A program made the position numbers and the translations under genes. The notes below the pieces were generated by a model. That model worked only from the letters and a program-made list of their open reading frames with translations, was not told the origin of the DNA and ran no database searches. Positions 5,730 through 58,454 of a stretch of 64,000 nucleotides of DNA are shown piece by piece. The first letter of the stretch is position 1, and every line of letters starts with the position of its first letter. Source of the DNA: Ulota crispa (lineage: Eukaryota; Streptophyta; Bryopsida; Orthotrichales; Orthotrichaceae); NCBI GenBank assembly GCA_963920765.1, contig OY987244.1:22796358-22860357 (forward strand), given 5' to 3'.

Positions 5730-6091
5730 TTAACCCCTAACCGTCCAAGAGGACGAATCGTCCTTTGCATGCCGAAAACACACCCCGAGGGTGGAAAAAT
5801 ATATATTTTTTAAATTTTTTTCTTGAAAGTGGGTAGAGATGTGTCATATCATTGAATGTCAAAAATAGTTGCTTTCAATGCCTTCATATTTTTTTAAACA
5901 CTAATTTGTAAAAAGATGTACAAGGCTCTTGTTGTTTTTTTTGTGAGGGCAGGATATACTATTGATTTTTCCTTCTTTTGAGGAGAATATTATCTCTCTT
6001 GGAGACATGCCACAGGCTATTCACTGCCCATGAACAGTGCACACTCTCCTGGTTTGCGCCACGGGTTCAGGGTCAGTCCTTTAAGGGTTAA
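5730..6091. mobile_element. TTAA element a (362 bp)
   Basis: Left end TTAACCCCTAACCGTCC; right end, read on the minus strand, TTAACCCTTAAAGGACTG. Both borders are TTAA. There is no coding capacity. Confidence 0.75.
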
Positions 6092-6288
6092 GCCAAATAG
6101 ACAGCAAAACAGGTTGAACTTACAGAAGGGTGCAAGTTTCACTGTAGAATTGTACTTCCTTCTAAAACGTGCGCCTCTGCGGGTCTGCGCCATCTCCAGC
6201 GTGCACTGTACACTGTAGACTAGTATAAAGTGATGGACTTTCGGTACAATGCTGATGGGATTATCGGTACTCTGCTCTATACAAATTA

Positions 6289-6440
6289 GGGTCTCCTTCC
6301 ATGCTCACCTGGTGGACGGTCAAACTAAAAATACTCCACGGTCGGATGAGATTTTGGTTTTGCTGGAGCCCCATCAAACCATATTATTGGTGGAGTATTT
6401 TTAGTTTGACCTGCCACCACATGAGCATGGAAAGAGGCCC
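6289..6440. mobile_element. Tourist/Harbinger-like foldback MITE 1
   Basis: Ends GGGTCTCCTTCCATGCTCAC and, inverted, GGGCCTCTTTCCATGCTCAT, flanked on both sides by TTA. The arms extend inward (ACTAAAAATACTCCAC against GTGGAGTATTTTTAGT). A 3-bp TTA target and GGGCCT-type ends are the pattern of PIF/Harbinger MITEs. Copies lie at 22,755 and, more diverged, 18,316. Confidence 0.85.
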
Positions 6441-6517
6441 TTAGAGTTACTGTAGGAAATAGTAATTCCTTTTTTCCTACATTAATTATTGCAGTGCTCT
6501 CCCTAAAACTCTAGGAT

Positions 6518-6845
6518 AAGAGCATTTCCACCAGTCTGGGCTCTTTCAAAGTTTTCCATCTATTTTTGTTGGCCCTTTGATCTCCAATTCTCCACCCATG
6601 CTCTTTAAAAAGGTGCCCTTGCACTCCAACACACCCCATAAATAATCCGTTGACCACTTATCAAGGGAAGTAGAGGATAAAGTTCACTAAACTTAGTTCA
6701 CTAAACTTAGGATCAATAATGATGAATAGTGGCTTGACAAACCCTTGCAAGACACGGTAAGACAAAGTGTCTTGAGAGGATTTTGAGAGGGGCCCAACAC
6801 TTTTCATCCACTTTCAATGTGTTTGAGCTACCAGTGGAGATGCCC
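6518..6845. mobile_element. hAT-like non-autonomous element (328 bp)
   Basis: TCTAGGAT stands directly before (6510-6517) and after (6846-6853) the element, an 8-bp target duplication. The inverted ends are AGAGCATTTCCACCAG on the left and GGGCATCTCCACTGG when the right end is read inverted. An 8-bp duplication is typical of hAT elements; the end sequence itself is not diagnostic. Confidence 0.65.
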
Positions 6846-7382
6846 TCTAGGATTTCTTTTTTTCTTTTTTTTTGTCTATAAAGAGGTTGAAGGCACCAAA
6901 AAGTGTTTTTTTGGGCAATTTAAGGCCCAATTGCCTCAAAAAAAAAGGTGAGCTTCAAGCCTATAGAAAAAAAGGGGGATTTTTTTTCAAAAATGCCTCA
7001 TTGCAATAATGAAAATTGCATTGCAGTCTAGGCCTCCATAAAAAATTTGTTAAATTAAAAATTGATGCCATCACTTTAAAATTATTTGAGGTATTGTCTA
7101 ATCTAATTCCATGCAATAATAAAGTAATACCAGTGGTTATTCAGATACTTTCAAAAAATGTCAATGAGAAATTTTTGCCCACAAAAAAATCCCACGATGC
7201 TGCAAAAATCCATGCATAAGGGCCACCTTCAACTCCAACCAAAAATAGGATGGAGCCTTCAAGCTGCAAACTATTTTCAAAGAATGCCACACAAGCATTA
7301 GTCGGAAAACCCAAAAAAAAAACCCCTGGTATCGAATGTTACAGGGTCAAAAGACACATGCTCAAGGAAACTGGTTTTCTTG

Positions 7383-7760
7383 TTAATCCTTAAGCATTGG
7401 GTGGGTCATATTGGCTTGCCCTGACTTTGGCTTCTACAGTATTTTGCAGTTGGTCACCAAATAATATTGCCTTAGAAAATTGCAAAAGTCAATAGTACAT
7501 GCTGATTCCATAAAAATTGCAATAAGGGCAACTTGAGACCTAACGAGTGATTATGAATTTGGAGTACCTAAAATTATGAGTGTATTTGATGAATTTTATT
7601 TTTACCTTCCATGGTGCCTTCCATGGTGCATTACGCATTTATGATCACTTCTGAAAAGAAATCACATCAAAATCAGTTTTTTTCTGGGCTATAGTGGCTT
7701 TTTTCGGAGGCAAAGGACGTTTTTCATCCGGGCAGACGTTTAGGGATCAATCTAATCGTG
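7383..7760 (+). mobile_element. repeat family A, copy 2
   Basis: Starts TTAATCCTTAAGCATTGG and carries the family A interior (ATGAGTGTATTTGATGAA, CCTTCCATGGTGC doubled, TTTATGATCACTTCTGA). No right TTAA end was identified. Confidence 0.5.
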
Positions 7761-8218
7761 AGTTTATTGATTTCCTATGAGATGGTTCCAAAAGTTCCAG
7801 GAACTAGGACTGGTTCTCAAAGAATCCTTTTTTGAACAGAGTTGAGTGAGTTCATCTGGGGTACCCATATTTATGGGAGAAAGGACAGGTGCTGGTCAGT
7901 GGTTACTCATAGATGGATTTCATTAAAAACTCATCCTGCATTTCATGATTCAGACACCCTGTTTCTGGGGACAGGGTGAATTGAATCCGCTCTTTTATGA
8001 ATATGGGTGGAAAGTAAGACGTCCCTATTTTGGAGTTGGTCGTTTTTATTCCCATCCAAGCAAGGTTCTTTTTTTGGCAAATGTTTCTCTAAATCCTACC
8101 CCAATCTGACACTAGCTACCATTACAGTATTACACAAAAAATTGGGTGAATAAGTGGATAAAATTGCCAAATACCTCTCCAAGCAAACACTGGATGAAAA
8201 TAATTAATATTAGTAGAT
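7761..8218. other. intergenic, no gene seen
   Basis: Contains a loose inverted repeat (ACCCATATTTATGGGAGAAA near 7,863 against TCTTTTATGAATATGGGTGG near 7,992) that may be a decayed foldback element. Nothing else was recognised. Confidence 0.4.
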
Positions 8219-9127
8219 TTAACCCCTAAAGGATCACGGCCTTTATTTTGTCAAAAGACACTTAAAATTGCCATTTCTGGTAAAGTGTAAAAAAAATTTT
8301 AAGTTGGTCTTTTGTATATTTAATTGTAGGATCTTATACTAGACTAGTATAAGAATGTGTAAAACAAATTCAAAATTGTTGTATTAACAAATTGCAAGAG
8401 ATTTGCTTTTAAAGTGTAAAACAAACTTTTTTGCACCTTGCATGGTTAGATTATTTGACTTTGGACTTTTTTAGCTTAAATTTGTTACACCACAGAGTTG
8501 GGAAGTTTAAATCTTTATGGTAAAAAATTGAGTTGAGAATCTTTGGAAAAAAATTAAAACAAAAAACACTTAATTTTCATTCTTAAGAAAAATAAAAGGT
8601 AGAAGAAGGTATGAGATTGAACAAAAACTTCAATTGTTGATAACAATGCAATGGAATTGAAACACAATAATCCCAATGGTGAGATTGTTCTAGCAAGCAA
8701 ATTTCACCCATTTCAACAAAAAAAATTGAAAAAATGTTAAACTTGCACTCAAAAATGAACTTTACAAGTTACTTTTTCAAGAAGATGCTTGAATTGCCCA
8801 AAAAACAAGATTGTTCATAACTTTCTCATAACTACTCCAAATGGAATGAATCAAAGCTTCAAATGTAGAAAAACAAAATCTATGAGAGAGAGAAAAAAAA
8901 GTTGTAAAAAAAATTACTGCTCAAACTCTCCAAATTTGTGCTTATTTGGGCATAACTTTTGCTCCCATGCATAGATTGGAATAAAAATATATATGTTCCC
9001 TAAAAGCTCATGTGTTTTTCTATCTTCAAAAAACGTTTCAAAAAATCAAGACAAAAATTGAGGCCGTTAGTACCTTCCCAAAATCCAATTGGTTCCTAAA
9101 AAGGGACAATGGTCTTTTAGGAGTTAA
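8219..9127. mobile_element. TTAA element b (909 bp)
   Basis: Left end TTAACCCCTAAAGGATCACG; right end inverted TTAACTCCTAAAAGACC. The interior is very AT-rich and has short ORFs only (longest about 61 residues, no domain). It has the phrase CATAACTTTT..GGAAT.., which resembles the 16.4-17 kb repeat. Confidence 0.7.
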
Positions 9128-9799
9128 ATGCAAGCCCTGTCTTCATCTTCCCTAAATCCCTGCTTTTCTCAAGTGGAACATGGGGTGAAATTTTTCAAAA
9201 GCTTCACTTGAGGAAAATTCCTAAAATTTAGAAATTTGCCGCAATAGGTCAAATTTGGAGATTTTCTTGTTAGTAAAAAAGTAGAGCTTTCCACCTCTGG
9301 TTTGATTAAAGAGTAAATTTGAAAAAAGGTATATTACAAGCACTATGTTTAGTTTAAAAATAGCAAAAAACAAAAAAACTTACCTCCAAATTGCTTCTAG
9401 TATGGGGTCACCCAAGTAGGTGGTGAGAACATCGCCATCGTAGACAGAAACATAGACATAACTTGGATTTTAGTAGGAGGACATGTGGTTTAGACCTCCA
9501 TTGCATCATTGCTATTGACTTCTAGATAGTGTGGAAAGAGAGTACAAGTTTGTGTTCACGCTATTTTGAAGGTCTTTCCCGTCCACGCTAGAGCTCATGA
9601 AAGGACTTGATTCCCTTGACTATAGTTAAAAGGTGCTTGAGAGAGGAAGTTGGTCATGACAAGAGACAAGGGGGTTCACGTGAGTGCAATGGAAGGATTT
9701 CAGAATTGGCAGAACCGCTACTGCAAATGACATGCTCCTTGACTCTTCAAAAGACTTTCCGCATTCTCTTTTCCAAGGCAAGCAGTGGAGCCGCTATGA
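9128..9799. other. intergenic, less AT-rich stretch without identified gene
   Basis: The part from 9,540 to 9,800 is less AT-rich than its surroundings and carries an ORF of 69 codons (from 9,607) with no family resemblance I can name. It could be a decayed gene fragment. Confidence 0.35.
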
Positions 9800-9939
9800 G
9801 GGCATCCCCAATCTAGCCGTAAACAGGCCTGCTACAACCGAGTCTAACACATTAGTAGCCATCATATCATAATCTAATGGCTACTAATATGTCAAACTTG
9901 ATTGTAGAGGGCCTATTTATGACTGGATTGAGGATGCCC
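9800..9939. mobile_element. Harbinger-like MITE (140 bp)
   Basis: Ends GGGCATCCCCAATC and, on the right, GATTGAGGATGCCC. Flanks are TGA on the left and TAA on the right, a 3-bp target with one mismatch. An inner hairpin (ACATTAGTAGCCAT..ATGGCTACTAATATG) fills the centre. Confidence 0.65.
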
Positions 9940-10135
9940 TAAGCCACATTCCCTGAGAGGAGCACCGACGAGACGGACAAGATTAGTAAAATAGGTACTT
10001 ATATAAGCTTAGTGAGTTAGTGACCCTCTAAATCCAAAAATTGTGCAACCTCAAAACGACCTCGTAGACAACAGGAGGCTCTCTCATTGGTTCTTTTGCT
10101 TGTTCTTCAAAAAATTAACCTGCTATGGTCATATG

Positions 10136-10137
<2 letters not shown>

Positions 10138-10171
<34 letters not shown>

Positions 10172-10285
10172 ATATTGTGTATTCATGTTGCTCCACCCTA
10201 TTTATTGACATTTTGCAGTATATAAATGAGATTAATACTACAATATAGTAAGTAATAATTACTACAATATAGTAAGTAATAATTA
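10138..10285. repeat. A homopolymer and 28-bp tandem repeat
   Basis: A run of about 30 A bases at 10,140-10,169 is followed by ATACTACAATATAGTAAGTA-type units of 28 bp repeated between about 10,226 and 10,285. Confidence 0.8.
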
Positions 10286-10294
10286 CTACAATAA

Positions 10295-10500
10295 AAAGGT
10301 TTTGAAGGACCTAATAACAACAACAAAATTGTGTAAAAGCAAACTAGCAACAGTCATGTTGTAAATCACGTGAAATCCTAGTATTCAAAGAGCTACACGT
10401 GCCTCCAAGTGACCAAGCAATGAGTCATGCAATAACTTTTCAAGGTAAGATAATCTAATTTCTAAGGCAACCTAAGTGCACTATTTAGTGTAGAATTTTG
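10295..10500 (+). repeat. dispersed repeat family G, copy 1
   Basis: Shares ordered blocks with 22,510-22,695: AACAACAACAAA, TCCAAGTGACCAAG, ATGAGTCATG, AAGGCAACCTAA, ATTTAGTGTA. The two copies are diverged but collinear. A short piece of the end (AGTGCACTATTTGGTGTAGA) also appears at 14,290. Nature unknown; no ORF. Confidence 0.6.
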
Positions 10501-11656
10501 AAGTTTGACTACACATACATACTTTGACTTTGTTCTTACAAAAAAATGGTCTACTTTGACCATGTAGTGGTCTTTCACATCACTTGTGGTCAAAAAAGGA
10601 AGTTCAATCTGAATATTGTATTATCTTGCTAAAAATATGATCCTTCTATGTGTGTGCTTTCTACTAGTTCATATGGTTGACAATCTTGCAATTGGCCCTG
10701 AGTAAGGAAGAACCTACAGGTTGTTGCAGGAATGATGTGCCAGTTTTGTCTCAAACACCCTTAAAACTGGTAGTACTAGGTAGTTATGAGCTTTTGAAAT
10801 AATTTTTTTTAGATTAAAAAAAAATATGGAAAATTTGTAAAGCACTCAAAATAGCATACTTGTGGAAACTTGGAACTATAAATTATTTGTTCTAAAAGTT
10901 ATGCATAAAAATAGAGGGATAGAAATTACCAATAAAAAGACAATTTCCTTTTTGCTTTTTAGAAAATAGTAAAAAATTCAAAAAATAAAAAATAAAAAAT
11001 GACTATTTTTGATCTCTCTCATTAGCTTGAATTGATGCAAGTGCTTTTTGGAGGAAGGTTTTTGTCTTTCACCAATGGAGGGAGAAAGGATGCCTACTTT
11101 GAGACAATGTGCAGGGCAAAGTTTTTTGAGTTTTGTAAAAATGATCTACAAATCCATGTAATGCTTTCTAGTGAACAACTTCCTTGACTTGTGGCATGAG
11201 ATTTGCTTTTTTCAATCCAAAATAGTACTAAAAACCACCAAAATTGCCAAGGTAGACATGCAATTGGGGTCCACTTAAAAATCGTAAAATAATTTAGAAA
11301 AAAACAAGAAAATATCTTGAATGTTAATAAATTTCATGTTCACCTTACTTTAAAAATTTAGGCCAAAATGACTAAAACCACAAAAGATAGGACCCAAAAA
11401 CCACTCGCATGAGGTGAAGGGGATAGAAAGCAGGACATGTCATTCTTGCAATCACCCCTACAAAACTCTAAAAAAAGATAGTAATACATTGTGTACCCAA
11501 TGGGCATGTAGAAAGTACAAATATACATGCTACTTTCCCTTGGACATGGGCTCTTGCAAGCTTGCTTGTTGACATTTTTGTACACTTGTGGTACCCAAAT
11601 ATCATGTTGAAGGCACATCAACTTGAAAATGAGTATTTGGCTGAGATTCTGCTACT
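10501..11656. other. intergenic, no gene seen
   Basis: AT-rich sequence with homopolymer runs (for example AAAAAATAAAAAATAAAAAA near 10,980). Both-strand ORFs are short and without recognisable motif. Confidence 0.5.
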
Positions 11657-12058
11657 AAGACCATCTCCACCATGGCCGCCAGCCCACGTCTGAAGCTCTG
11701 GCCAGGCGAGACGGAGAGACAACCAGTTCCCACCCGGCACCGGCAATGCCGGACCGGAGGGGCGGCCAATCGGGTTCAGTAGCTCAGCTTTGCCATATTC
11801 TTCTTGGATGGCAGCCTCAAAGGGGAAATGCCAGGCGGACTTTGCGAGTAAGATTTTGACACATGCTCTGTGGAGGGGAGTGCGAGAATTCAGTCTGGCA
11901 AGATTTTGGAAAATGTGAGCGGGACAGTGGCCCAAACTCTAGCCTGGGTGGGCTTTGGGAGCCACCCCGTCGCCCCACTCTGCCTCCCACCCCGCATCCT
12001 ACTGGGCTACAAAACCCGGCCACAAAACCCGGCTTGGCGGCTGGGGTGGAGATGCCCT
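11657..12058. mobile_element. GC-rich element with inverted ends
   Basis: GACCATCTCCACCATGGCCG at the left and, inverted, GGGCATCTCCACCCCAGCCG at the right. The interior is strikingly GC-rich for this window and supports overlapping ORFs of 65-105 codons on both strands; none has a domain I recognise. The CATCTCCACC ends resemble those of the hAT-like element at 6,518, but no target duplication is visible. Confidence 0.55.
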
Positions 12059-12680
12059 GAGACGACGGTTCTAGCCTCCAGGATCTGGGGTAAGCTTATA
12101 TTGTCAACTGGTTGAAATTGTAAAAAAAAACATGTTGAAACTCTAAAAAAAAATATGTTGAAACTCAAAACGACCAGATAAGAAGTTGGCCAATTTTGTT
12201 TAAAAAAAATCAATTAAGTTCTAGTGAATTACAGTTCCGACATAGGAAATGTATAGAAAATAACTTGTGCCCGTGAATAATTGGTTGAAAATGGGAAGAC
12301 GCTAAAATTTCAACCTCAACAACTAGGCGGTTCCCTCTACTTCCTATATGTGTGCAAGTTCCACCTCAATGTAAAATCCTAGTTTTGTTGGCTTATTGAT
12401 AGCAACAAGTGACACTAAAGAAGTCATGAACATTTAATGCAAAAGACTGGTAGAATGTGTATTGAAAGTTAGATCAATCAATAACCCAATATAATTTGCA
12501 TGTTTGTACCTTGATTAAAAATTGGAGGATACTCTCCTTGTTGGAATTAGTGGGAGGGAGGCTTTTAATCCATTTCAAAACAATCTTGAAATATGGCAAA
12601 TAAACATGAAACTTCATATTTTAGCACTTAGGCTTAGTCATGCACTTGATCCGTGTATATGGTCAAGAGACAATCACATT
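12059..12680. other. intergenic, no gene seen
   Basis: AT-rich, with a short tandem CATGTTGAAACTC-type repeat near 12,130-12,170. No gene recognised. Confidence 0.5.
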
Positions 12681-13560: not shown

Positions 13561-13639
13561 ACCCGTTGGTCCAACGGGATGCAAAATAAGATCAAGTTAA
13601 CCTAGTTACGCAAAACATTTCCTCGGCAAGAAAATATTT

Positions 13640-14489: not shown

Positions 14490-15142
14490 TTAACCCCTAA
14501 ATGCCCAAGGCACTTTTTGAGCTTTTAGGGATTTGTTCTATGTTGAACAAGAAGCCAAAATTTTGATAAGTTGTATTAGTTTTTTTGAGATCATAACTGT
14601 ACAAAATCAAGTATATATGTTAGAGATCACATAGGAAAAGAAAACACAACAATATCATTTATGGATTGAAAGACTATAATGTTTGATTCAAGAGGGTGTT
14701 TACTTTTGTGAAAATGACTTGAAGTCTTTCAATCCTCTTTTCACATGTCAAATCTAAAAAGATGGTCACATAAAAGATACGGGGTTAAAGGACATAACAT
14801 ACATAACTCCAATCAATTTACTACTTTTCAAAATCTCCTCTACAATTTTTTAAAATGAATTCCTAGTGTAAGTTTTCTCCAAGGTCTAGTGTATGTGAGG
14901 CTCATTTCCAAGAGCTTTCAACATTAAAAAAGTCAAGATTGCAATGGACACCCTTGCACAAAATGTTGAATAGAAAAATTATAATCAATCAGTCACAAAT
15001 TTGGTTTTTAATCCTAAAATTAGTTTTCAGAAAGAATAGTTAAAAAATAAAATCGACTAAAAATAGAAACTTAGATAGGTTTTATAAAAATTCAAAGTAT
15101 TTTCAACACCATAATGTGGTGCCTTAGGTATTTAGGGGTTAA
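14490..15142. mobile_element. TTAA element c (653 bp)
   Basis: Left end TTAACCCCTAAATGCCCAAG and inverted right end TTAACCCCTAAATACCTAAG; the two ends match at 18 of 20 positions. The interior is AT-rich with no coding capacity. Confidence 0.85.
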
Positions 15143-15681: not shown

Positions 15682-15759
15682 TTAACCCTCAACGCCCGAG
15701 GGGCGAAAAAAACGCCCCATTTCAATGTTTTTTTGAAAGCTGGGGCATTGAGGGGTGAA
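15682..15759. mobile_element. minimal TTAA element (78 bp)
   Basis: Left end TTAACCCTCAACGCCCGAGG; right end inverted TTCACCCCTCAATGCCCCAG, so the right TTAA is changed to TGAA. An inner GGGGCG/CGCCCC hairpin is present. It is almost all terminus. Confidence 0.65.
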
Positions 15760-18227: not shown

Positions 18228-18315
18228 CCCCAACTTGGTGTTGCCTGTGTCAAGTGGGGGGGGGGAGTCAATTCCTACCCAACATTGATGGCCAGACCGA
18301 GTGGAGATGGTCTAA

Positions 18316-21991: not shown

Positions 21992-22239
21992 TTAACCCCT
22001 GGGCGCCCAAGAGGCCAAAATATGGCCTCTCAATTTTGAAAAATTTCCTTGTTTGACCGTTATAATCTTTTCAATGGTACGGTGAAAGGACGTGTCTTTT
22101 TTCATGGAGCTCCGGGCCTATGTGCATTACCAATTGGTACGGTTAATTTTTGTGAATCTCTCTCAGGTGATAATTTTATTGGAATGAGTTCCAAAGGGTT
22201 TGGATTTGAGTGAACTTGTGCTGGGCACTCAGGGGTTAA
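21992..22239. mobile_element. TTAA element d (248 bp)
   Basis: Left end TTAACCCCTGGGCGCCCAAG; right end inverted TTAACCCCTGAGTGCCCAGC. An inner GAGGCCAAAATATGGCCTC hairpin follows the left end. Distantly related to elements e and l. Confidence 0.85.
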
Positions 22240-22998: not shown

Positions 22999-23234
22999 TT
23001 AACCCCTGAGCCCCCGATCGACATTATACTGTCAATGGGCCCACAAACTTTATCTCACTGTTTCTCTTAATTTGTACCGTAAAAACAATCATGATTGGTC
23101 CCATCAAGAAAGAAGGTAGTCCTTTTTCAAATCCTACGATTAATTTTTTTGAATGTAATTTTCCAAGCTATGGTGGCCATTAAACCCCCATTTTCTCTTA
23201 AATCTTAAAGTAACTCTCGACGCTCAGGGGTTAA
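22999..23234. mobile_element. TTAA element e (236 bp)
   Basis: Left end TTAACCCCTGAGCCCCCGAT; right end inverted TTAACCCCTGAGCGTCGAGA. The interior (AAACAATCATGATTGGTCCC, GAATGTAATTTTCCAAGC, GGTGGCCATTAAACCCCC) is collinear with element l at 55,712. Confidence 0.88.
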
Positions 23235-23526: not shown

Positions 23527-23741
23527 TTAACCCTTAAACGTCCCAGGGATAGTAGATACTTTGCCTTGTAATTGACTTTTGTTATCAACAAAAAGTTTTA
23601 ATTTGGGATCTCAAATAGCTCACTAGAACTGCATTAACTTATATTTTAACTTCTTTGTTGATCTCAAGTGTAGTAAAGGTGTAGATCTATTCCAAATACA
23701 AGAAAAATATCTTGTGTGTCTTTTAGATGTTTAAGGGTTAA
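23527..23741. mobile_element. TTAA element f (215 bp)
   Basis: Left end TTAACCCTTAAACGTCCCAG; right end inverted TTAACCCTTAAACATCTAAA. TTAA on both sides. Confidence 0.85.
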
Positions 23742-31979: not shown

Positions 31980-32052
31980 GCCGGCCTAGCTCAGTTGGTA
32001 GAGCGCAAGGCTCTTAACCTTGTGGTCCAGGGTTCGAGCCCCTGGGCCGGCG
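31980..32052 (+). tRNA. tRNA-Lys (anticodon CTT)
   Basis: A 73-base gene that folds completely. The acceptor stem is GCCGGCC with GGCCGGC plus discriminator G. The D arm is GCTC-AGTTGGTA-GAGC and the anticodon arm CAAGG-CTCTTAA-CCTTG, with anticodon CTT at 32,013-32,015. The T arm is CAGGG-TTCGAGC-CCCTG. There is no intron. The internal A and B boxes (TAGCTCAGTTGG, GGTTCGAGCC) supply the Pol III promoter, and TTTT at 32,053-32,056 follows at once as terminator. The sequence is of the usual plant nuclear elongator tRNA-Lys type. Confidence 0.97.
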
Positions 32053-32056: not shown

Positions 32057-32109
32057 CACGTGTGGATGTATCGAGGAGAATCACTTGATCTCTACTGTAA
32101 TAGAGTTTT

Positions 32110-32430
32110 TGTAATATTTAACCCCTGAATTTGAACTTCAAGGTTTCTAGATGGCACTACCCAAAAAGAATCCAAAATGGTTGTGCGGATTTTAAGATAT
32201 TTGTGAATGATGATGAGTATGGAATTTTTTGTTTTTTTTTGGAACTGCCCGAAACTTCTAATGCAAATTTGTAATATTTAACCCTTGAATTTGAACTTCA
32301 AGGTTTCTAGATGGCACTACCCAAAAAGAATCCAAAATGGTTGGGCGGATTTTAAGATATTTGTGAATGATGATGAGTATGGAATTTTTTGTTTTTTTTT
32401 GGAACTGCCCGAAACTTCTAATGCAAATTG
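32110..32430 (+). repeat. tandem duplication, unit 160 bp
   Basis: TTTGTAATATTTAACCC through AACTTCTAATGCAAAT occurs twice in a row with only two or three differences (CCCCTG versus CCCTTG; TTGTGCGG versus TTGGGCGG). It duplicates one terminus of element g soon downstream of the tRNA gene. Confidence 0.92.
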
Positions 32431-33092
32431 GTAACTTTTGGATATAAAATTGAGAAACAACCACCTAGGATGCTCTAGTGTTTATTGTTGTTACTTCAAA
32501 ACTAATGGCCCCTCTTCCAAATCCATGGCCATAATTTCACAAATGAGCCTGCAATGCAATTGTCAAAACGCAACCGTCTAATACAAAGTAAATTATTAGC
32601 TTCAATTATTGACCAAAAATCAATTTGAACAAAAGAAAATTCAACAGTAAAAATGGATTCTAATTTTTATAACAAAGACATTCCAAGTGAAATCAGTCTA
32701 GAAGCACTTTTAGATTTTGTTAGATGTCAAAATTTTAGTAAAAAGGCCCTTATTGCCCAAGGGAGTGTCCAAGGGAAATTTTCACCTTTTTCTCAACTTG
32801 AAGCCCATCTTTTCAATGTGACAACTTCTCATAGGCTCTGTGACACTATTCACAACACTATTCATGACACTATTCATGGCATAAAATGTATGCTTGTAGT
32901 TAACATTCTACCAAAAACAAATGAAATAAGATATGGAGAATGTTGAATTCAAACAGTGAAGTTAACTTCAGCGCTCAACTCTTCCAAAAAACAAAACCTG
33001 AAAACAATAAAATCCATGCCTTCAACATGGTTTCAAAGTTTCATGAACTTTTTGGATTCCATAATCTAGTGCTTTGGGCATTTAGGGGTTAA
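32118..33092. mobile_element. TTAA element g (family B, inverted orientation; 975 bp)
   Basis: Left end TTAACCCCTGAATTTGAACT; right end inverted TTAACCCCTAAATGCCCAAA. The interior is about 90% identical over long stretches to the reverse strand of 54.63-55.5 kb and is also related to 57,568-58,454. The left 160 bp, including the TTAA end, is tandemly duplicated (32,118 and 32,278). A 97-codon ORF (32,653-32,946) is partly shared in frame with the copy at 54.8 kb but is interrupted in the third copy. Confidence 0.75.
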
Positions 33093-44917: not shown

Positions 44918-44935
44918 AGTTTCACTTTGGTTATC

Positions 44936-45935: not shown

Positions 45936-46484
45936 TTAACCCCTAAACATCCAAGGGGGTAAGGACAAAGCATAAATGCGTTCTAAAATGATACTTTTGT
46001 AACTTCAATGACAATTGTTTCAAAAGAGAAAACAAGAATCATGATGTTTAGCATTTATCCATATGGTCCAACATTCAAAAAAAATTTGTATTCTAATTTA
46101 ATGAATTTAAAAGCATTTACCATTTAATATTGATCAAAATTTAAAAAATTATTCATAGAGTTTAAAATTTGATATGATTGGTTAAAAATAGACATTCTAC
46201 TTGAAAATTCAAAAATGCAATATTTTTGACTAAGAGAGCATCATTAGTTTCCCAAAATAGTAAATTTTGTAACACTAGCAAATATTGAAGTGTTTGTCTT
46301 TGAGAAATTCTCTTTGGTGGAGTTTAACTTGGATTGACATTATTCAAATTATGTTGAAGAGTAGACTTGCTTCCCTATATGAGGGTATTTTTCATTTTTT
46401 CAAAAAAACGTTATTTTTCACTTTGGGCAACCTGCAAAAAAGGGCAACAATCAAAAAATTGTCAATTGGGCGTTTAGGGGTTAA
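45936..46484. mobile_element. TTAA element h (549 bp), first of a tandem trio
   Basis: Left end TTAACCCCTAAACATCCAAG; right end inverted TTAACCCCTAAACGCCCAAT. Its right TTAA (46,481-46,484) is also the left TTAA of element i. Confidence 0.88.
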
Positions 46485-46712
46485 CCCCTGAAGGGCCCTT
46501 GGGCTTTGGAGCTACAGTACCAAATATGGTTGCAACCAATGTTTAGAAGTTTGAATCAGCTAGAAATTAAGTGTTACAACCATACATATTGAAAGTTTGT
46601 ATGATGGTGGGTGCATATATTTTTTTGAAAAATCCTCAAAGTAGCTCAAATACGTTTATACATACGGTCATACATACGGCCGCAAAGGGCGTTTGGGCCC
46701 TTTAGGGGTTAA
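46481..46712. mobile_element. TTAA element i (family C, 232 bp), second of the trio
   Basis: Left end TTAACCCCTGAAGGGCCCTT; right end inverted TTAACCCCTAAAGGGCCCAA. It shares single TTAA junctions with both neighbours. The reverse strand is collinear with 54,420-54,625 (GGCCGTATGT.., GTATGGTTGTAACACTTAAT). Confidence 0.9.
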
Positions 46713-47454
46713 CCCTTGAAAGTCCCAAAGGATCAAAAGTGTCCTTACATGATTTTATAGGCCTCTTTGAGGCATTGGATCTAATTTTTGACCTTGCTAT
46801 AAACTACAATCATCAAGGCGTTTAGGTGGTGCATGCAAGTAGAGTAATGGTAGGGCAAGTTGAATTTTTTTTCAAGTGCCTTGAGAGCCTCAATTGGGTG
46901 AAACACCATATGAGACGAGGTAGCAAATATTGTCTTATAAGCTGCAAGCAATTAGTACTTGTTGCAAGCTTCCTTGCATGTATTTTGTGGTGGCAGGAGA
47001 TTTGCCAACAAGGATTCAAGCATGTTCTAAATCTTAGTTGTGGCAACTCTAACCATTTTTTACGCAACAACAATTCAAAGGCTTAAAACTCAACATCCAA
47101 AGAAGTACATTCACTAATAATTTGCAAATGTGTGCATTCACATCTAGTCTTGCTACTCACAAAATTTGGGATGAATTAGCAACTTTTAGAAGCTTGTAAA
47201 AATCAACAAATGAAAATTACTTGCCAAAAAATGAGATTTTATCATTACATGTTTTTTGGTCAAATGTTATAATTTCCTATCTACCACGTTCAATTGTTCC
47301 CAAATTTTGCAAACTGTTTTCTAAGTAGGTATCCCACCATTTTTAATGGTCACTTTTTACAAATCATCTACATGACCAAAATGCAATGCATCAAAGTTGT
47401 AGGCCTCCCTAAGCCCTAAAATTGTTGAAAATGGCTTGGGCGCTTAGGAGTTAA
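46709..47454. mobile_element. TTAA element j (746 bp), third of the trio
   Basis: Left end TTAACCCTTGAAAGTCCCAA; right end inverted TTAACTCCTAAGCGCCCAAG. Short ORFs only. Confidence 0.82.
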
Positions 47455-48646: not shown

Positions 48647-51600
48647 TCAAACTGATGAAGCAGCCTGCGATGACGCAGCCCCCTGAGCATTTGAATGAAG
48701 CACTGCTGCCACCTCTTCTGCACCAAGTTTAAGAGCAGGAGCCGGCATGGATTTGCTTGAAACGTGCGAAGCACAGAGTGATATACACCAGATGACAAAG
48801 AGAGAAAACTTGGTTCCCAAGCTCGTGTTTTCCTGGTATCCCACATCAACCACAACATTGTCATCATCTTCACAACAAGACAGAAGTTCAACAAAAGCCA
48901 GACGAGAAATGTCCAACATCACCAAGTCCTGCAGAATCCTGATAATCACAAAAATAACTGACCTTGGGCTGGCCGGCGTCGTTTGCACGTGAGCCTGCAG
49001 CTCCACGGTCAAACACTTGATTCACAGTGTCTGGCAAGACATTTGGATCAGATTGGAAATCATCCTGCGCGAGCTGTGCAACATGTTGGATAACTCCTGA
49101 AATCAGCTCCGACGAATCGTCAGTTTTGCTCCTCTCGTCAAGAACAATGTGAGCCACACTCTCTGAATACGAAGCTTTCCCATCACCAACCACGCTCGAC
49201 TTTACATCTTCTAAGGTCTTCTCAGCAGCGTCTTCGAGGTTAACCGCTACTTCATGCAGATCGAGAGACCTCTGTGATTCTGTATTCTCCGCAGGAGATG
49301 GAGTTGACGTTTCTAATGAAGTTGTATCACTTGCAACTGCATCAACAGAGCTGTCCTCCTCCTCCTCAATCGCTGTTGTCACTTTGCCAGAAGTCGTATC
49401 GTCAGAAATGGGATGGGCCTCCCTGAGATCTTCGAAGTTGGATTCTCTTGATACAGTTTCAGGCGTGACCTGCACATCCTCAGACAAAAAAGCCGCAGAT
49501 TCTAGAACTACTGGTTCTGCATCAATTGCTGCATCTGCAATGTTTTCTGTCTCTTGAATGGGAGCAGGCACTTCCTCAACAGCGAGGTCATGGCTATTCT
49601 CTGAGTGCAGCTCTGCAATTGTTTCCTTACTCAGTTCTTCAGGTTTCTCTTCACCGTCGTTAGGAGCAGGCCTAGATTCCAAAATTGTCGATCCATCATC
49701 TGAGTCAGCGGTGATCGTCGATTCTACCACTTCGTGCACCTCCTCCACAGGAGTAAAGAGAGATTCACTTCCAACCTTATCAGCTGCACCATCAGCAGGA
49801 CCGTCTTGGGCATCATCAGCAGGACCATCTTGAACATCAGTAGCAGGCATAGACTCCAAAATTGCTGATCCTTCATCGACTCCAAATTCTAAACTCCCTG
49901 AGCCTTCAACGTCTCCAGATTCCAGATTTACATTGGCGCCTGCGCTAGTTGTTGCTTCAATGGATGGTTCAAGGCCTACATCCGCCTCGTCGACACTTTC
50001 TGATGCTGTAGTCACCCCAATGGCATCCTCAGAACTCAGGTCGACAGACCTTTCTTCAGCAACATCCGAAGATGCGAGCGCGGATTCCGGTCCTTCGTCG
50101 AGCTCTGCACTAATTGTCGCCTCCACAACTTCATGTACATCTTCGTCAGGAAAATAGCGAGTTTCACTTCCAACAACATCAGCTGCACCTCCAGCAGGAG
50201 GTTCAGGGCTTCTGTCCTCTTCTTCCTCACTCTTTGAAGGCGGTACTTCACCTGCCTCACTTGTATCGTTAGAATCGACTTCTTGAACAAAATTGTCGTC
50301 AACATCAGCAGCAGGTGCAGGGGCAGAATCCAAAATAGCTGACGCTTCATAAGCCTCTGGATTAGTGATTGAGTCTTCAGGCTCTACCTCAAAGGATTTC
50401 TCTTCGACATCGACAAAAGGCGAAGGCGCGGCTTCCAGAGTTGCCTCGTCTTCATCAAGCTCAGCAGTTACTGCTTCTGCAACTTCATGATCCTCTTCCG
50501 GAGGGGCCTCGGGTGCTTCACTGTCATCTGTCTCCAAAGATTCTTCACCTTGGGTTTCGGGACTAGCATCCTCACTGACAACCCGTCCATTTCCAAGATC
50601 CAGCTCAAACGATTCCTCTTCGACATCTACAAAAGGTGAAGGCGCCGCTTCCAGAGGCTCTGCAATATTTAATGGCCCTGCAACCTCATTCACCTCTTCC
50701 ACAGGAGCTGAAGCTTCGCTCTCACCTATCTCAGCCGCCGATCCTTCATCTTCAGTTTCGGGACTAGCATCCACACTCAAAGCCCGTGCAACATCAGAAC
50801 CCAGCTCAAAAGGTCTCTCATCGACATCAACAAAAGGCGAAGGCGAGGCTTCCAGAGTTGCCTCGTCTTCATCGGGCTCTGCACTAGGTGCTGCTTCTGC
50901 AACCTCGTGAACCTCTTCAACAAGTGCCTCGGGTGCTTCACTGTCACCTGTCTCAGCCGATCCTTCAACTTCGGTTTCTGGACTAACATCCTCACTCACA
51001 GCAGGTGCAACTTCAGGATCCAGCTCAAAAGAATCCTTCTCGACATCTACAAAAGGTGAGGGCGCGGCTTCTAGAGGCTCTGCAATATTTATTGGCTCTG
51101 CAACCTCATTGACCTCTTCCGCAGGAGCTGAAGCTTCACTTTCACCTGTCTCAGTCGATACTTCAGCTTCGATTACGGGACTAGCATCCACACTCAAAGC
51201 CCCTGCAACTGCAGAACCCAGCTCAAAAGGTTTCTCTTCGACATCAACAAAAGGTGAAGGCGAGGCTTCCAGAGTTGCCACATCTTCATCAAACTCTTCG
51301 CTAGTTGCTCCTTCTGTAACCTCACGAACATCTTCCACAGGAGCCACAGGTGCTTCACTCCCACCTGTCTCAGCCGATTCTTCATCCGGAATCGTAGGGC
51401 TCACTTCTTCACTAGTACCAACCTCCGCAGGCAATTCCTCACTCACCGCCCCCACATCTCCAGAACTCACCTCAACACTCTTGTCTTCAATACCAACGGC
51501 TTCGTCAGCAAGGTCAACAGATTTATCGTCGACCTCTACAACTTGTTCTCCAAACTCGGTTGAAGATGAGGGCACGCCTTCTTGACTTGTAACTGTTTCC

Positions 51601-53297
51601 TCAGGCTCTACATGAGCTGCTGCGTCAGCAATCTCATTAGCCTCCTCCACAGGAGCCTCGGGTGCATCACTGTCCCCTTCGTCAGCCGATCCTACAACTA
51701 CGAATTCAGGGCTGACATCCTCACCTGAGGCCACAGCATCCTCAGAATCCAGTTCAACAGATTCTTCTCCGCCATCAACAACAGGTGAAGGCGCGGTTTC
51801 TAGAGTTGCCTCGTCCTCATCAAGCTCTGCGTTGGTTGTCGATTCCGTAAGCTCGTGAACCTCCTCCTCAGGAACTGTACTGTCACCTATCTCCCCAGAT
51901 TCTTCACCTTCGGTTTGAGGACTAACATCCTCACTCACAACCCGTCCATTTCCAAGATCCAGCTCAAAAGATTCCTCTTTGACATCTACAAAAGGTGAAG
52001 GCGCGGCTTCCAGAGGCTTTGCAATAGTTAATGACTCTGCAACCTCATTGACCTCTTCCACAGGAGCTGAAGCTTCGCTCTCACCTATCTCAGCCGCCGA
52101 TCCTTCATCTTCGAATTTAGGGCTAATATCCACACTGAAAGCCCGTGCAACATCAGAATCCAGCTCAAATGATTTCCGTTCGACATCAACAAAAGGCGAA
52201 GGCGATGCTTCCAGAGCTACCACGTCTTCACCAGGCTCTGCACTAGTTGCTGCTTCTGCAACCTCAACAACATCTTCGGGAGAGGCCTCGGGTGCTTCAC
52301 TGTCACCTGTCTCCGCAGATTCTTCATCCGGAGTCTCAGGGCTCACTTCTTCACTAGCAGCAACCTCTGCAGGCAACTCCTCGCTCTCCGCCCCCGCATC
52401 TTCAGAATTCATCTCAAAAGATCTGTCTACGACATCAACAGATTTGTCCTGAACATCAGCAGGTTTGTCTTCAACGTCAACGAGCTTGTCTTCAACATCA
52501 TCAGACTTCTCTTCAACGTCAGCAGTAGGTGAAAGTACAGCTCCCACACCGGCTCCTTCATCATTAACCTCTGCGCTGTTTCTTGCTTCTGTAGCCTCGT
52601 GAACCTCTTCCAAAGGAGTGTCAGGAGTTTCACTATCTCCTTTCTCAGCTGATCCTTCATCCTGGAAATTAGGGCTCACGCTTTCACTCGCGGAAATCTC
52701 AGCAGGGAACTCCTCACTCACAACCGCCGCATCATCAGAACTCAAATCAACTGCTTTCTCTTCAACATCAGCAGAAGGAACGGACACAGCTTCCCCTCCA
52801 TCAGAATATTGCACCGAAGCAGCGCTGGTCGGAGCATCGGCAATCAAATTAGAGCTCGCTAGCGTTTTCATGTACTCAAGTGTTCCATCCTCTGCGAAAT
52901 TAGGTTTATTGCCGGCACTCTCTTCCACAGCCTCACTCAAGTCCCAGCTCTCCACCTTCTCTGTCGAATCCACCACACCGCTCGAAGAAGAAGCAGGTCC
53001 GGTATCCACATCGGCGGACGCACTCACTGGCGCTTCTGCAGCTGAATCGACACTTCCAGCAACGGCAACTTGCGATTGAGCCATATCGAAATCCCCTGCG
53101 ACAAAGCTTACATTGGTTGCAAATCCAGAGTTGAAACTATTCATTCGAGCAGCACCGTTCATCAAGAGGCCACCACCACTCTCCATCTTCTTCACTTCCT
53201 CCTCTCCTGGTGCTACTACTACTGCTGCTGCCACTGTCTCCTCCTCGTGAGACGACGCCATGTCCAAGTTGTCCTCCCTCGCGTCCTCTAATCCCAT
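48647..53297 (-). CDS. large acidic repeat protein, unknown function
   Basis: One giant exon, 53297-48963, then probably a short last exon 48832-48647 joined in phase 0 (donor AAG/GTCAGT, acceptor GATACCAG); about 1,506 residues. Unspliced, the ORF stops at 48,888. The protein is extremely rich in E, D, S, A, P and V. Between about residues 280 and 980 a degenerate unit of about 70 residues recurs: SPSPFVDVEE-x-SFELDS, then VSEDVSPE, EGSAETGDSEAPEAPVEE, VHEVAEA. Two unit types alternate (NIAEPLEAAPSP and DEDEATLEASPSP), giving a higher-order period of about 140 residues. No globular domain is seen. The last exon carries a hydrophobic stretch (KFSLFVIWCISLCASHV), possibly membrane-spanning. 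Composition resembles acidic domains of plastid import receptors, but no GTPase is present, so no function is assigned. A pyrimidine tract and TTTGCAG at about 53,347 suggest a leader intron. The ATG at 53,297 is the first in frame. Confidence 0.75.
50400..52420 (-). repeat. coding tandem repeat, about 210-bp unit with 420-bp higher-order period
   Basis: The coding motif for SPSPFVDVE (ACAAAAGGYGAAGGCG on the plus strand) recurs near 50,415, 50,630, 50,830, 51,047, 51,250, 51,990 and 52,190, with a variant near 51,785. The two types alternate for most of this stretch; 51,300-51,750 is the divergent segment. Confidence 0.85.
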
Positions 53298-53810
53298 CAC
53301 TGCATCGAAGATCCAATACCTTCAAATCCGGTCTCTTGTTAATCCCTGCAAACAGCACAAAGGTAAACCATCCAGTACCTCAGCAAATAAGTGCTTCTAA
53401 CTACACAAAAAGCAGGTTTTCTACCAAATAAGCTTATTCAAACAAAAGATGGACAAAGTGAGAACTGTTCTAACCACTTTTGCAGGAAGAGCTGCCTGTG
53501 GAAGCAGAGATCTAGTTCCAATGTCTCAATGTTTCAAGGACGTGCAAGACCTCGTCAAGCTGGGTAGATGGATAGCCACAGTAGTAGTGCCTAGTGACCC
53601 TTCAAAGTTTGAATCTTGCCAGCCTGGGGTGCCAGGTTAGGTGCCTCAAATGGGTCCCCTCCAATCAGGTACTGGCACATACACTCCTGAAGATCGTCCT
53701 CGTTGGCAATAGTGATGAGAACTACAACTACCGGAGGGCCCGCTTGTGCCCTACCGAGCTCTTCTTGCTGCAGGCTGCGTCATTGAACCACCTATGAACA
53801 TATATGAACA
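53298..53810. other. upstream region of the acidic-repeat gene
   Basis: Contains the probable leader-intron acceptor (near 53,347, minus strand) and presumably the promoter. The ORFs at 53,449-53,797 (+) have no recognisable domain, though the stretch is not AT-rich and might be a gene relic. Confidence 0.4.
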
Positions 53811-53821
53811 TATTGCTTTTA

Positions 53822-54127
53822 GGGAAAATTTCATGGATACCCCTGAAGTTTGCAATATTTTCATAGATATCTCTGCTTTTTCAGAAATATCACAAATAGC
53901 CATGGACCGAAAAATTAGGTATTTGTTTTGTTGTGCATATCACTTCCTTTCTTCCTTTGTGCATATGCACAACACAAAAGAAATATGATGCGCACAAAGG
54001 GAGAAGGAAGTGACATGCATAACAAAACAAACACCTAGTTTTTTTATCCAATGTATTTGTGATATTTCTGAGAAAGTGGGGTATCTATGAAAATATTGCG
54101 AACTTCAGGAGTATCCTTGAAATTTTC
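53822..54127. mobile_element. Mutator-like foldback MITE (306 bp)
   Basis: TATTGCTTTTA stands directly on each side (53,811-53,821 and 54,128-54,138), an 11-bp target duplication. Ends are GGGAAAATTTCATGGATACC and inverted GAAAATTTCAAGGATACTCC. The halves pair for about 145 bp (GCAATATTTTCATAGATA.., CAGAAATATCACAAAT.., TTTGTTTTGTTRTGCAT). The 9-11 bp duplication and long arms are typical of Mutator-type MITEs. Confidence 0.88.
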
Positions 54128-54308
54128 TATTGCTTTTATAGCTCCTTTGGTAGGTGACCTAGTGTCCGGCAACACTTTTTCTTACACACACTAATTACAA
54201 ACATTAGTGAAGGAAGAGCACAGGACTCCAGTATTTCTCTCATCACAGCAAATCGTCGAATCTAACTTTTTCATTTGAAAAGTGTCACACAGTCTTACAG
54301 AAATGGTC

Positions 54309-54423
54309 CGATTCTCAGTGTCTAAAAGTGTTCCGTACTGCGGAATGAATTTGGAGAGAAATCATAAAACAACGGTTGCTTTGAGCAGGCGACGGATAAT
54401 GCGGAGGCATATTCTAGGGTTAA
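54309..54423 (+). repeat. 115-bp repeat ending in CTAGGGTTAA, copy 1
   Basis: Matches 55,575-55,688 closely (ACGGTTGCTTTGAGCAGGCG, ATAATGC, AGGCATA, TCTAGGGTTAA). Read inverted it starts TTAACCCTAGAATATGCC, which looks like another TTAA-element terminus. Confidence 0.75.
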
Positions 54424-55502
54424 CCCCTGAACGTCACGAAAGCCCGTTGCGGCCGTATGGCCGTATGTACAGATAGATTTGAGCTACTTTGCTGGTTTTT
54501 CAAAAAAAATTATGTATTTATCATCATACAATTTTTCAACATGTATGGTTGTAACACTTAATTTTCATCTGATTCAAACTTTTAAATATTGACTGCAACC
54601 GTATTTGGTACCGTATCTCCAAATCCTAATGTTCAAAAAGTTTCAGGAAACTTTGAAACCTTGTTGAAGGCACAAATTTTATTGTTTTGTGGTTTTTTTT
54701 TTTGTGGAAAACTTGCTCATTGAAGTTAGCTTCATCGTTCAAATTCAACTTCCTTCATATCTTATTCCATTTGTTTTTGGTGGAAGGTTGACTACAAGCA
54801 TACATTTTTTGTCATGAATAGTGTTGTGAATAATGTCACAAAGCCTATGAGAAGTTGCCATATTGAAAAGACGGGCATCAAGTTGGGCAAAAGGTGAAGA
54901 TTTCCCTTGGACACTCCCTTGGGCAATAAGGGCCATTTTTTTGAAATTTTGACATTTAACAAAATCTAAAAGTGCTTCTGGACTAATTTCACTTGGAATG
55001 TCTTTGTTATTAAAATTAGAATCTATTCACCATTGAAAATATTTCACTCGTAATGGTTTTGATCAATAATTGAAGCTGAAAATTTCTTTGTATGAGGCGG
55101 TTGCGTTTTGACAATTGCGTTGCAGGCTCATTTGTGAAATTGTGGTCATGGATTTGGAAGAGGGGCCATTGGTTTTGAAGTAACAACAATAAACACTAAA
55201 GCTTCATAAGTGGTTGTTTCCCAATTTTGTATCCAAAAGTTAAAAATTTGCATTACAAGTTTTGGGCAATTCCAAAAAAGCAAAAAATTCCATACTCATC
55301 ATCATTCAATCACAAATATCTTAAAATCCGCGAGACAATTTTGGATTCTTTTTGGGTAGTGTCATTTAGAAACCTTGAAGTTCAAGATTCAACAATTACA
55401 ATTTTGTTTTGATGTTTAATAATGATCTTACAAGGACAATTCAAAAAATTCAAAACTACCTTCTGAAAACGAGAAAAACACCTTTGGGCATTTAGGGGTT
55501 AA
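54420..55502. mobile_element. chimeric TTAA element k (families C and B; 1,083 bp)
   Basis: Left end TTAACCCCTGAACGTCACGA; right end inverted TTAACCCCTAAATGCCCAAA. From 54,420 to about 54,625 it matches the reverse strand of element i (family C). From about 54,630 to 55,502 it matches family B (elements g and m). The inner ends of both families are missing at the junction near CCTAATGTTCAAAAAG. The family B part carries remains of a shared ORF on the minus strand. Confidence 0.85.
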
Positions 55503-55574
55503 TGCTGGAAAGGCAGTAGTAATACTTCTTAGTGTGACTTTGTGATTGAATTAAGGTTATTGCTGTTGTGAGTC

Positions 55575-55688
55575 CGTTTCTTAGTATCTAAAACTGTTCC
55601 ACACTGAGAGATGAATTTGAATAGAAAGCATAAATCAACGGTTGCTTTGAGCAGGCGACAGATAATGCAAAGGCATAATCTAGGGTTA
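55575..55688 (+). repeat. 115-bp repeat ending in CTAGGGTTAA, copy 2
   Basis: Second copy of the 54,309 repeat. After its TTAA comes GATTGAGTACAGAGC rather than an element; element l starts only 24 bases on. Confidence 0.75.
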
Positions 55689-55711
55689 AGATTGAGTACA
55701 GAGCTTTTGTC

Positions 55712-55948
55712 TTAACCCTTAAGCGTCCCAGCGACATGATCTTGTTGTTGGGATTCACAACTCTATCTCATTTTTTTCTTAATTTGTGTGGTGAAAACAA
55801 TCATGCTTGGTCCTCATCAATAGAGAAGGTAAATCTTTTTCAAATCCTCCGGTCACTTTTTCTGAATGTAATTTTCCAAGTTGTGGTGGCCATTAAACCC
55901 CCCATTTTCTCCTAAATCCTAAATTAACTCTGGGCGCTCAGGGGCTAA
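55712..55948. mobile_element. TTAA element l (237 bp)
   Basis: Left end TTAACCCTTAAGCGTCCCAG; right end inverted TTAGCCCCTGAGCGCCCAGA, so the right TTAA has become CTAA. The interior is collinear with element e at 22,999. Its right border overlaps the TAAGG start of the next element. Confidence 0.85.
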
Positions 55949-56263
55949 GGTAGGAGCACCCATAAGCGTCAGTGTCCCCATAATCTTCACCTTTGAAATC
56001 TTGGAAAATTAGTGGAAGTGAATAGATGTAATGACAAGGATGTACAGCATGTGAACATGAAATCTTAAAAGTGGTTATGGGTGCAATGGCAATTTGCTCT
56101 TTGAAAATTCACAACTTATTCTCACAATATCCAAATAATACATTTGAAAGTGCAAACTCATTATTTTTTTGTTCCTAATAGGATCCTATAATTTTCTAGT
56201 TGTTTATTGATACTCATCATGTTCAAAACCCTTAGTTTGACGCTTATGGGTGTACATACCTTA
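55946..56263 (+). mobile_element. TAAGGTAG-ended element (family F), copy 2
   Basis: Left end TAAGGTAGGAGCACCCATAA; right end inverted TAAGGTATGTACACCCATAA. Interior as in the 20,539 copy. Confidence 0.85.
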
Positions 56264-56995
56264 ACTCAAGGTTACTCAAAATACATGGAATAGCTGAAAT
56301 GATTGTACAAAGAGTTTCAAACCTAATGCTAAAAAGGCAGTACAGTAATGCTTGGATAAGATGAAGGTATCCGGCCAGCATATTCTTTTTATGTAAGAAA
56401 AGCATTCATTGTAGCTAAACAAGCTTTTATAGCTCCCCAATCACCAAGGACAGTCATCTACTTCATCTTAGCCAAGCATTTTTCCTTATAGAGGTTCATC
56501 TTAGGGAGGCACTACTGTAGTAGTACCGCTTAGTGTGACTTTGTGATTGAGATAGAGTTATTGCTGTTGCGAGTGCTTTGATGACCGTTAACGTGAGTTT
56601 AATGAAGGAATCCAAACCAGCGAAAAAGGAGCTTGAATGGATTCTCGGTACTGTACAGGTCTAACATTTTCTGCCAATGGAGGTGCTCCGAGTTTGCGTC
56701 CCGGATTCTCAGTTTCTTAGGCCGGAGTGACGCACCGACCGGAGATTTGCTTTGGAGCTGGTCAACTGGAAAACGAGGCGCGGGGTTTTTTGTACCAATT
56801 CTCAGGACGGCAGCGCTTGTCTCGAAGTTGAAAGCAATCAAGAGCTTTGAAGCAGGCTGGGTTTATTTTTTTGCATTTTTGCTGGTAGAGCGACACACAC
56901 CCCCAAATGCATGCAAGCAGGTAAGGAAAATCTACACAGAATTGGATACTAGAATTACCGGAGTGTGCACGTTCATCCATAAATACTACTGATAT
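56264..56995. other. spacer with an ORF of unknown nature
   Basis: At 56,330-56,530 a loose inverted repeat (GGCAGTACAGTAATGCTTGG..AAGATGAAG against CTTCATCTTAGCCAAGCATT) suggests a decayed foldback. From 56,580 the sequence becomes less AT-rich. An ORF of 119 codons (56,633-56,992, +) is followed in phase by a good donor (AAGCAG/GTAAGG at 56,921), so a gene start or exon relic is possible. I recognise no domain. Confidence 0.4.
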
Positions 56996-57286
56996 TAAGG
57001 TAGGAACACTCATAAGCTTGTGTTTAAGGGTTTTGAACATGATGACAATTAATAAACATCTAGTAAATTATAGGATCATGTTAGCAATAAAAAAATAATG
57101 ATACTGTGAGAATAATTTGTGAATTTTTTAAAGAGCAAATTGCCATTGTACCCATAACCAACACTAAGGTTTCATGTTCACATGTTGTATATCCTTGTAA
57201 GTACATCTATTTACTTCTACAGATTTTCCAAGATTTTAGAGGTGACAATTATGGGGACACCTATGCTTAAGGGTGTTCCTACCTTA
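56996..57286 (-). mobile_element. TAAGGTAG-ended element (family F), copy 3
   Basis: Left end TAAGGTAGGAACACTCATAA; right end inverted TAAGGTAGGAACACCCTTAA. The interior is the reverse complement of copies 1 and 2 (ACATGTTGTA.., GATTTTCCAAGATTTTAGAG). Confidence 0.88.
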
Positions 57287-57567
57287 GTAACTCTCAACCA
57301 AAATCTAGCAAACTTGGTCTAAGACCTAGTCCTAATTGTGGGAGAGATTTGACGACTTCATCCATTTTTTTCTTGAATTTTTGCTAATGTTATGATCGCC
57401 AATATGTTTTTGAGGTAAGACTTAGGTAAATTTTTGCCAAGAAAAACTTCCCTGCTTTGAAGTGATCAAGCTTGGTTCTCCCATGCATTTTCTTTGTTTT
57501 TTTTTGTTGGTCTAGCAACACAAAACCCTAGAAAAAAATCCTAGAGTTAGCCCAAAAAAAACTTTTT

Positions 57568-58454
57568 TTAACCCCTAAATGCCTGAGGCACCAAATTTAG
57601 GTGTTCAATAAACTTTGAGACCTTGCTGAAAACAAAGATTTGATTATTGTTATTACTATTTATTTTTTTGGAGAAGATGTAGTCTAAAGTTAACTTTAAT
57701 TTTCAATTTCATTGTCCTCCATACAACATTTCAATTATTTTTGGTGAAAGCTAAACTGCAAGCATGTCTATTGCGCATCAAAAAGTGCAATGAATAGTGT
57801 CACTAATGAGCTTGTGACAAGTTGCCACATTGGAAAGACAAGGTAGCAAGTTGAGAATAAAGTCAAGATTTCCCTTAGGCACTCTCCTAGGCAGTGAGGG
57901 TTGTTTTACTATAATTTCATCATTTAAGAAAATCTAAATGCGTTTTTGTGCTACATTTTGTTATACAAAGTGAATGAATACAATGTTGAAAATTCTTTCA
58001 TTCATAATGATTTTTGGTTAATACTTGAAGCTAAACATTTTTTTGTATTAGGTGGTAGCACTTTGACAATTGCCTTACAAGCTCATTTGTGAAATTGTGA
58101 TTGTAGATTTGGACGGAGGTCATTAGTTTTGAAACAACAACAACAAACTCCAAATCATCATAGGTGGTTGTTTCCCAAATTTTTACTCAAAAGTTGCAAT
58201 TTTTGCATTAGAAATTTAGGGCGGTTAAAAAGAAACTATAAAATTCTATACTCATCCACATTCTATCACAAATATCTTAACATCCACATGGCTTTTTTGG
58301 AATATTTTTTGGTAACACCATTTAGAAGCCTTGAAGTTCAAGATCTTATTGCTACAATTTTGTTTCAAAATTTTAATAGTGAACTTGACAATTCCAAAAC
58401 TTCAAAATACCACCATAAACCAAAAAAAGTACTCTCAGGCATTTAGGGGGTTAA
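57568..58454. mobile_element. TTAA element m (family B, 887 bp)
   Basis: Left end TTAACCCCTAAATGCCTGAG; right end inverted TTAACCCCCTAAATGCCTGA. It is collinear with the family B part of element k and the reverse of element g, but more diverged; the shared ORF is broken by stops here. Confidence 0.88.

Follow-up and report, generated by a model that had tools for sequence, protein, structure and literature searches.

The 64 kb stretch of contig C3 analyzed in this study, hereafter the window, carries many short elements bounded by TTAA, the inverted ends of which begin with CCC (or C). An original prediction, made from the letters alone, had described them as a family of piggyBac-like miniature inverted-repeat transposable elements (MITEs) in a plant, and this was followed up by searching the whole assembly of 274.8 Mb in 157 contigs. 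Thirteen two-ended elements had been proposed; all 26 of their borders are found in the sequence, 25 as TTAA and one as TTAG (CTAA on the plus strand, at 55948), and the five further single ends at 7383, 12681, 15992, 31014 and 44936 are likewise present as sequence. The 13 intervals make up 11.4% of the window, and none of the listed open reading frames of at least 120 amino acids lies within them. The elements have the properties of MITEs, being short and non-coding, with two inverted ends, a target duplication and a high copy number.

The limits of some of the 13 elements, rather than of each, were checked against genome copies. For the 236 bp element at 22999-23234 they are confirmed, with most of the 40 scored copies (of 1049 candidates) aligning end to end at 86-89% identity, and the 237 bp element at 55712-55948, one border of which is mutated to TTAG, belongs to the same family (81%). 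Whole-query copies also confirm the limits of the 909 bp element at 8219-9127, at 80-83% identity (40 of 3481 candidates scored), and of the 746 bp element at 46709-47454, at 74-76% across positions 1-746 (40 of 2119 candidates scored); in both comparisons a good share of the scored copies lack one end, others ending near position 880 in the former and falling short in the latter. The 232 bp element at 46481-46712, which is 82% identical along its full length to a copy on contig C8, has a TTAA in common with each of its neighbors, the 549 bp element at 45936-46484 and that at 46709-47454, and elements of different families thus abut. The 653 bp element at 14490-15142 has ends of the TTAACCCCTAAATGCC type that are alike over 24 bases with at most two mismatches. 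The 362 bp element at 5730-6091, with ends TTAACCCCTAACCGTCC and TTAACCCTTAAAGGACT, matches through positions 1-360 of 362 a copy beside the transposase locus L026 (82% over 381 columns), and the 248 bp element at 21992-22239 is 69% identical over its full length to a MITE adjoining the transposase-carrying L012 element described below.

The ends themselves are strongly enriched. Their core, TTAACCCYTRAR, occurs exactly 23 times in the window compared with zero in each of five first-order Markov shuffles, and its reversed pattern is absent from the window; when one mismatch is allowed, there are 37 occurrences compared with 3-5 in the shuffles. The whole-genome search that had been proposed gave ends in the tens of thousands, far above the reversed control: 53,219 compared with 1,409 for TTAACCCYTRAR, and 12,736 compared with two for a longer 17-base pattern. 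The core is about twice as dense in the window as the genome mean (23 observed, 12.4 expected). If all were paired, the excess ends would correspond to roughly 26,000 elements, a rough figure owing to single and mutated ends. A minimal element of 79 bp with perfect 17-base inverted ends was also seen at L039:6513-6591; of its 567 candidate matches 40 were scored, and 39 of these are additional copies at 87-95% identity.

A search of the genome with the Pfam profile PF13843 (the piggyBac transposase domain, DDE_Tnp_1_7), in which 116 of 528 candidates were scored, gave at least 120 matches on contigs C1-C11, a few of them being two pieces of one copy, with a best E value of 1.3e-73. The genome holds, in addition to the MITEs, many decayed larger copies with the piggyBac enzyme domain. 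The same profile had no match in 14 control genomes, a weak control since those named are prokaryotes. Flanks were widened at nine transposase loci, and five of these could be delimited as elements of 5.0-5.7 kb. The A_L009 element (5027 bp, C3:13130262-13135288) and its relative B_L018 (5026 bp, on C10) are 90.5% identical, with homology from the left end to one base beyond the right TTAA; the others are the L014 (5102 bp, C2:15046195-15051296), L031 (5308 bp, C1:30793800-30799107) and L012 (5746 bp, C5:10867266-10873011) elements, in each of which the inverted TTAA-C(C/T)C ends match. Such ends bound four of the five copies, and in the fifth, B_L018, the left TTAA is mutated to TTCA. The four transposase-carrying lineages each have their own variant of the same end, that of the L012 element being the commonest MITE type. 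The original prediction had called for a full-length copy with a piggyBac transposase between such ends and had named full copies encoding another transposase as the finding that would contradict it; the enzyme domain in all five delimited copies is PF13843.

In the Protein Data Bank, a fragment of the L012 transposase matches piggyBat (9c0f, 1.7e-16) and the chains 6x67/6x68 (3e-13), which are labeled 'Transposase' and which we take to be Trichoplusia ni piggyBac. The first two aspartate positions of the DDD triad align with the solved chains. All three motifs could be read in seven of 31 loci; raw pattern matches, some of them false, number 24, 24 and 16 of 31 for motifs 1, 2 and 3, respectively. 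Tails rich in Cys and His were seen by eye at the C-termini of the L011 and L012 translations, and that of L012 has no zinc-finger match in Pfam. At L061 (C1:1178700-1183700) a piggyBac-type gene has its matches in separate stop-free open frames; the 5 kb examined contains no TTAACCC end, and the gene is possibly a domesticated or intron-bearing copy.

The window elements are joined to these larger copies through L012. The 887 bp element at 57568-58454 aligns with the L012 element at each end (67% over 209 columns at one and 74% over 565 at the other), positions 54953-55502 match its right part (83% over 554 bp, as far as the terminal TTAA) and the interval 32118-33092 matches it at 83% over 453 columns; judging from these alignments, the three are read as probable internal-deletion derivatives of the transposase-carrying element. 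The enzyme, which had previously been deduced from the ends, is thus tied by sequence to 57568-58454 and to the right-hand portion of 54420-55502. In the remaining window families the shared ends continue to suggest, at one remove, that it would be a piggyBac transposase.

Two of the 13 elements were mis-delimited. The interval 54420-55502, taken as a single complete element, was rejected. When 40 genome places were scored, the 39 other than the window copy aligned only from query position 200-216 onwards; bases 1-210 represent a truncated copy from the 46481-46712 family. C8 is the only place with both parts, and there they are found in unchanged order as two separate elements with 143 bp between them, each full-length with respect to its own family. 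The window copy is therefore a fusion of two truncated elements that have lost their inner ends, namely a MITE of the 46481-46712 family at 54420-54629, of which the end at 54420 stands, and a left-truncated relative of the L012 element at 54630-55502, of which the end at 55502 stands. The interval 32118-33092 was likewise rejected as a complete element. It is a relative of the L012 element truncated on the left, the true left end of the type lying about 110 bp farther out in the relative at 54420-55502, in a stretch that is absent here; the TTAACCCC at 32118 falls within a 160 bp tandem duplication (32108-32267 and 32268-32427). On this alignment evidence the border at 32118 is spurious, TTAACCCC being a chance match, and the end at 33092 is the only one upheld. 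Owing to the fusion and the spurious border, 11 of the 13 elements and 25 of the 26 ends stand. A transfer RNA gene (Rfam) lies just upstream of the truncated element at 32118, at 31980-32052.

The target site was characterized by comparison with unoccupied paralogues in the same genome. In the clear case, the L031 element sits inside a copy of the MITE at 45936-46484, and the joined L031 flanks align with the uninterrupted copy in the window at 78% over 556 columns with one TTAA at the insertion point. In a good case, three distinct copies can be aligned to L040:2822-3756 (L002 and L003 being the same place), the 215 bp element at 23527-23741 in the window serving as an unoccupied paralogue for an element in L040; the junction has one TTAA in two of the three (L040 and the window). 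A third case, L040:6697-7637, is looser, its alignment being gapped by three bases at the junction. TTAA is the target and is duplicated on insertion. A different target length at empty sites had been named beforehand as evidence that would contradict piggyBac; the unoccupied paralogues have a single TTAA.

Taken together, the evidence assigns the elements in the window, with a high degree of confidence, to the piggyBac superfamily as non-autonomous copies (MITEs). They reside in a plant nuclear genome, most probably that of a moss, and the identification originally made is borne out by PF13843 in the five delimited copies and by the continuity of the L012 copy with the window MITEs. In the proposed mechanism, the DDD-type transposase of the 5.0-5.7 kb relatives would recognize the inverted ends starting with CCC, cut out the DNA and integrate it at TTAA with duplication of the four bases, while internally deleted copies that had kept both ends would be mobilized in trans and multiplied. 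We infer that the other MITE families are also mobilized in trans and that excision is seamless.

A number of observations weigh against this interpretation. A sequence link to a transposase-carrying copy exists for only some of the families in the window. No convincing end pair was found at four of the nine widened loci (L011, L019, L026 and L055), among 30 transposase loci about 4.1 kb in length 29 have no 12-base end of the MITE type (at most one mismatch), and looking for inverted TTAA pairs within the 4.1 kb loci yielded nothing useful; the delimited elements exceed the length of these loci. Among 46 candidate two-ended pairs scanned for unoccupied paralogues, a spanning match was obtained in only two, and the third copy aligned with L040:2822-3756 has CTAA at the junction. 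Most of the listed transposase frames contain in-frame stops, which bears on present activity, and L055, otherwise a good copy, has N in the third D motif. The delimited copies are also longer than the full piggyBac elements of bees, for which the passages available from PMC10140906 give about 2.23-3.52 kb and transposases of about 580 residues.

Kolobok transposons also use TTAA targets, and the target by itself cannot tell the two superfamilies apart. It might accordingly be proposed that a Kolobok enzyme drives the TTAA-flanked elements, and PMC9587614 concerns such transposons. The superfamilies differ in their transposase, however, and the domain present in the five delimited copies with such ends is PF13843, one of these copies being continuous with the window MITEs; although no search for a Kolobok transposase was made, this explanation is very improbable. 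Slightly less remote, and still improbable, is that several unrelated MITE superfamilies share TTAA-CCC ends by chance and that only some are piggyBac, as the very different interiors and the limited number of families matching a transposase-carrying copy could suggest. Against this, the end variants of the four transposase-carrying lineages mirror the range of the MITE ends, and different families abut and use a common TTAA alike.

Contamination with animal or algal DNA was also considered. Contig C97 (L057) joins a plastid rbcL-accD region to a frame that is not plastid-like and is probably chimeric or foreign, so the assembly does include some foreign or chimeric contigs. However, the contigs that hold the transposase matches and the MITE copies, C1-C11, are chromosome-scale, and the window itself holds a DUF1442 (methyltransferase-like) gene at 3440-4093 on the minus strand, DUF1442 being typical of plants; there is next to no likelihood that the elements are contaminants. 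The predicted plant host is borne out, and a moss is likely from the order of the plastid genes. The 112.5 kb contig C157 is a plastid contig with rbcL, trnR(CCG) and accD, in which petD, rps11, infA, rps8, rpl14, rpl16, rps3, rpl22, rps19 and rpl2 follow in that order (names read from translations) and rpoA is absent between petD and rps11. In the Protein Data Bank the rbcL protein matches rubiscos of both land plants and algae, a result too broad to single out one group. Loss of plastid rpoA is a moss trait, most mosses being without the gene. From this order and the rpoA loss, the host is assigned to the mosses with fair, not full, confidence.

An additional conserved region was found in some of the larger copies. 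A_L009, B_L018, L014 and L019 have a region with the core W..L(C/F)..QIAK(L/I)LG, located some 1.5-1.8 kb upstream of the transposase domain and belonging to a domain of about 90 residues. With a 95-residue query, 82 copies were recovered genome-wide (E <= 0.001), including loci L063-L077, L047, L050 and L041, and 17 of the copies align at 22-60% identity to the first. A listed transposase match lies within 10 kb downstream on the same strand for 35 of the 82, in 18 cases at 1.47-1.91 kb, compared with 0.17 on average for random placement and one on the wrong side. For the remaining 47, the list of transposases, itself a lower bound, contains no partner, and no copy among those listed belongs to the L012 or L031 elements. 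Pfam, Protein Data Bank and fold searches with the domain gave no convincing match. The domain could represent either an N-terminal exon or a separate protein. A more tentative proposal, to which we give slightly less than an even chance, is that the elements represent a distinct, long-established piggyBac branch, with elements of about 5 kb, a second conserved domain (an N-terminal exon or accessory protein) in several lineages, a major share of the DNA transposons and tens of thousands of MITE ends.

Elsewhere in the window, a 1470-residue acidic frame with degenerate repeats and no Pfam match lies at 48888-53300 on the minus strand, and a shorter frame resembling it lies at 63440-63922, also on the minus strand, near the right edge.

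piggyBac, a cut-and-paste transposon in wide use for gene delivery, is known chiefly from animals and, to our knowledge, is regarded as rare in land plants. The presence of abundant piggyBacs with large MITE families in such a plant would widen the natural range of piggyBac, give a plant-adapted source of its enzymes and offer a system for studying the spread of its MITEs. The extra upstream domain adds a concrete novelty that can be put to the test. The full-text literature searched, the coverage of which leaves out bioRxiv preprints altogether and subscription papers for the most part, yielded no paper on moss piggyBac elements. The top moss match, PMC10619864, was discarded, both occurrences there being 'piggybacking'; Physcomitrella papers that name piggyBac, in the parts available, are PMC5505980 and PMC5253467.

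The superfamily is already known; what is new is the host, the scale and the extra domain, and the abundance and length are unusual. PiggyBac is named among the MITE classes of angiosperms (PMC10004981), and a repeat table for Ceratopteris gives 1230 copies and 122,417 bp (PMC6890710); the class name is held in common with the elements described here, and the passages available from those sources give names or counts only, whereas the present elements have a linked transposase, empty-site comparisons and a far higher density. The animal systems (T. ni piggyBac, piggyBat and the bee elements) share the TTAA target, the short inverted ends starting with CCC or C and the DDE_Tnp_1_7 domain with DDD motifs. 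The elements studied here differ from them in the conserved upstream domain of some copies and in the very large number of MITE ends.

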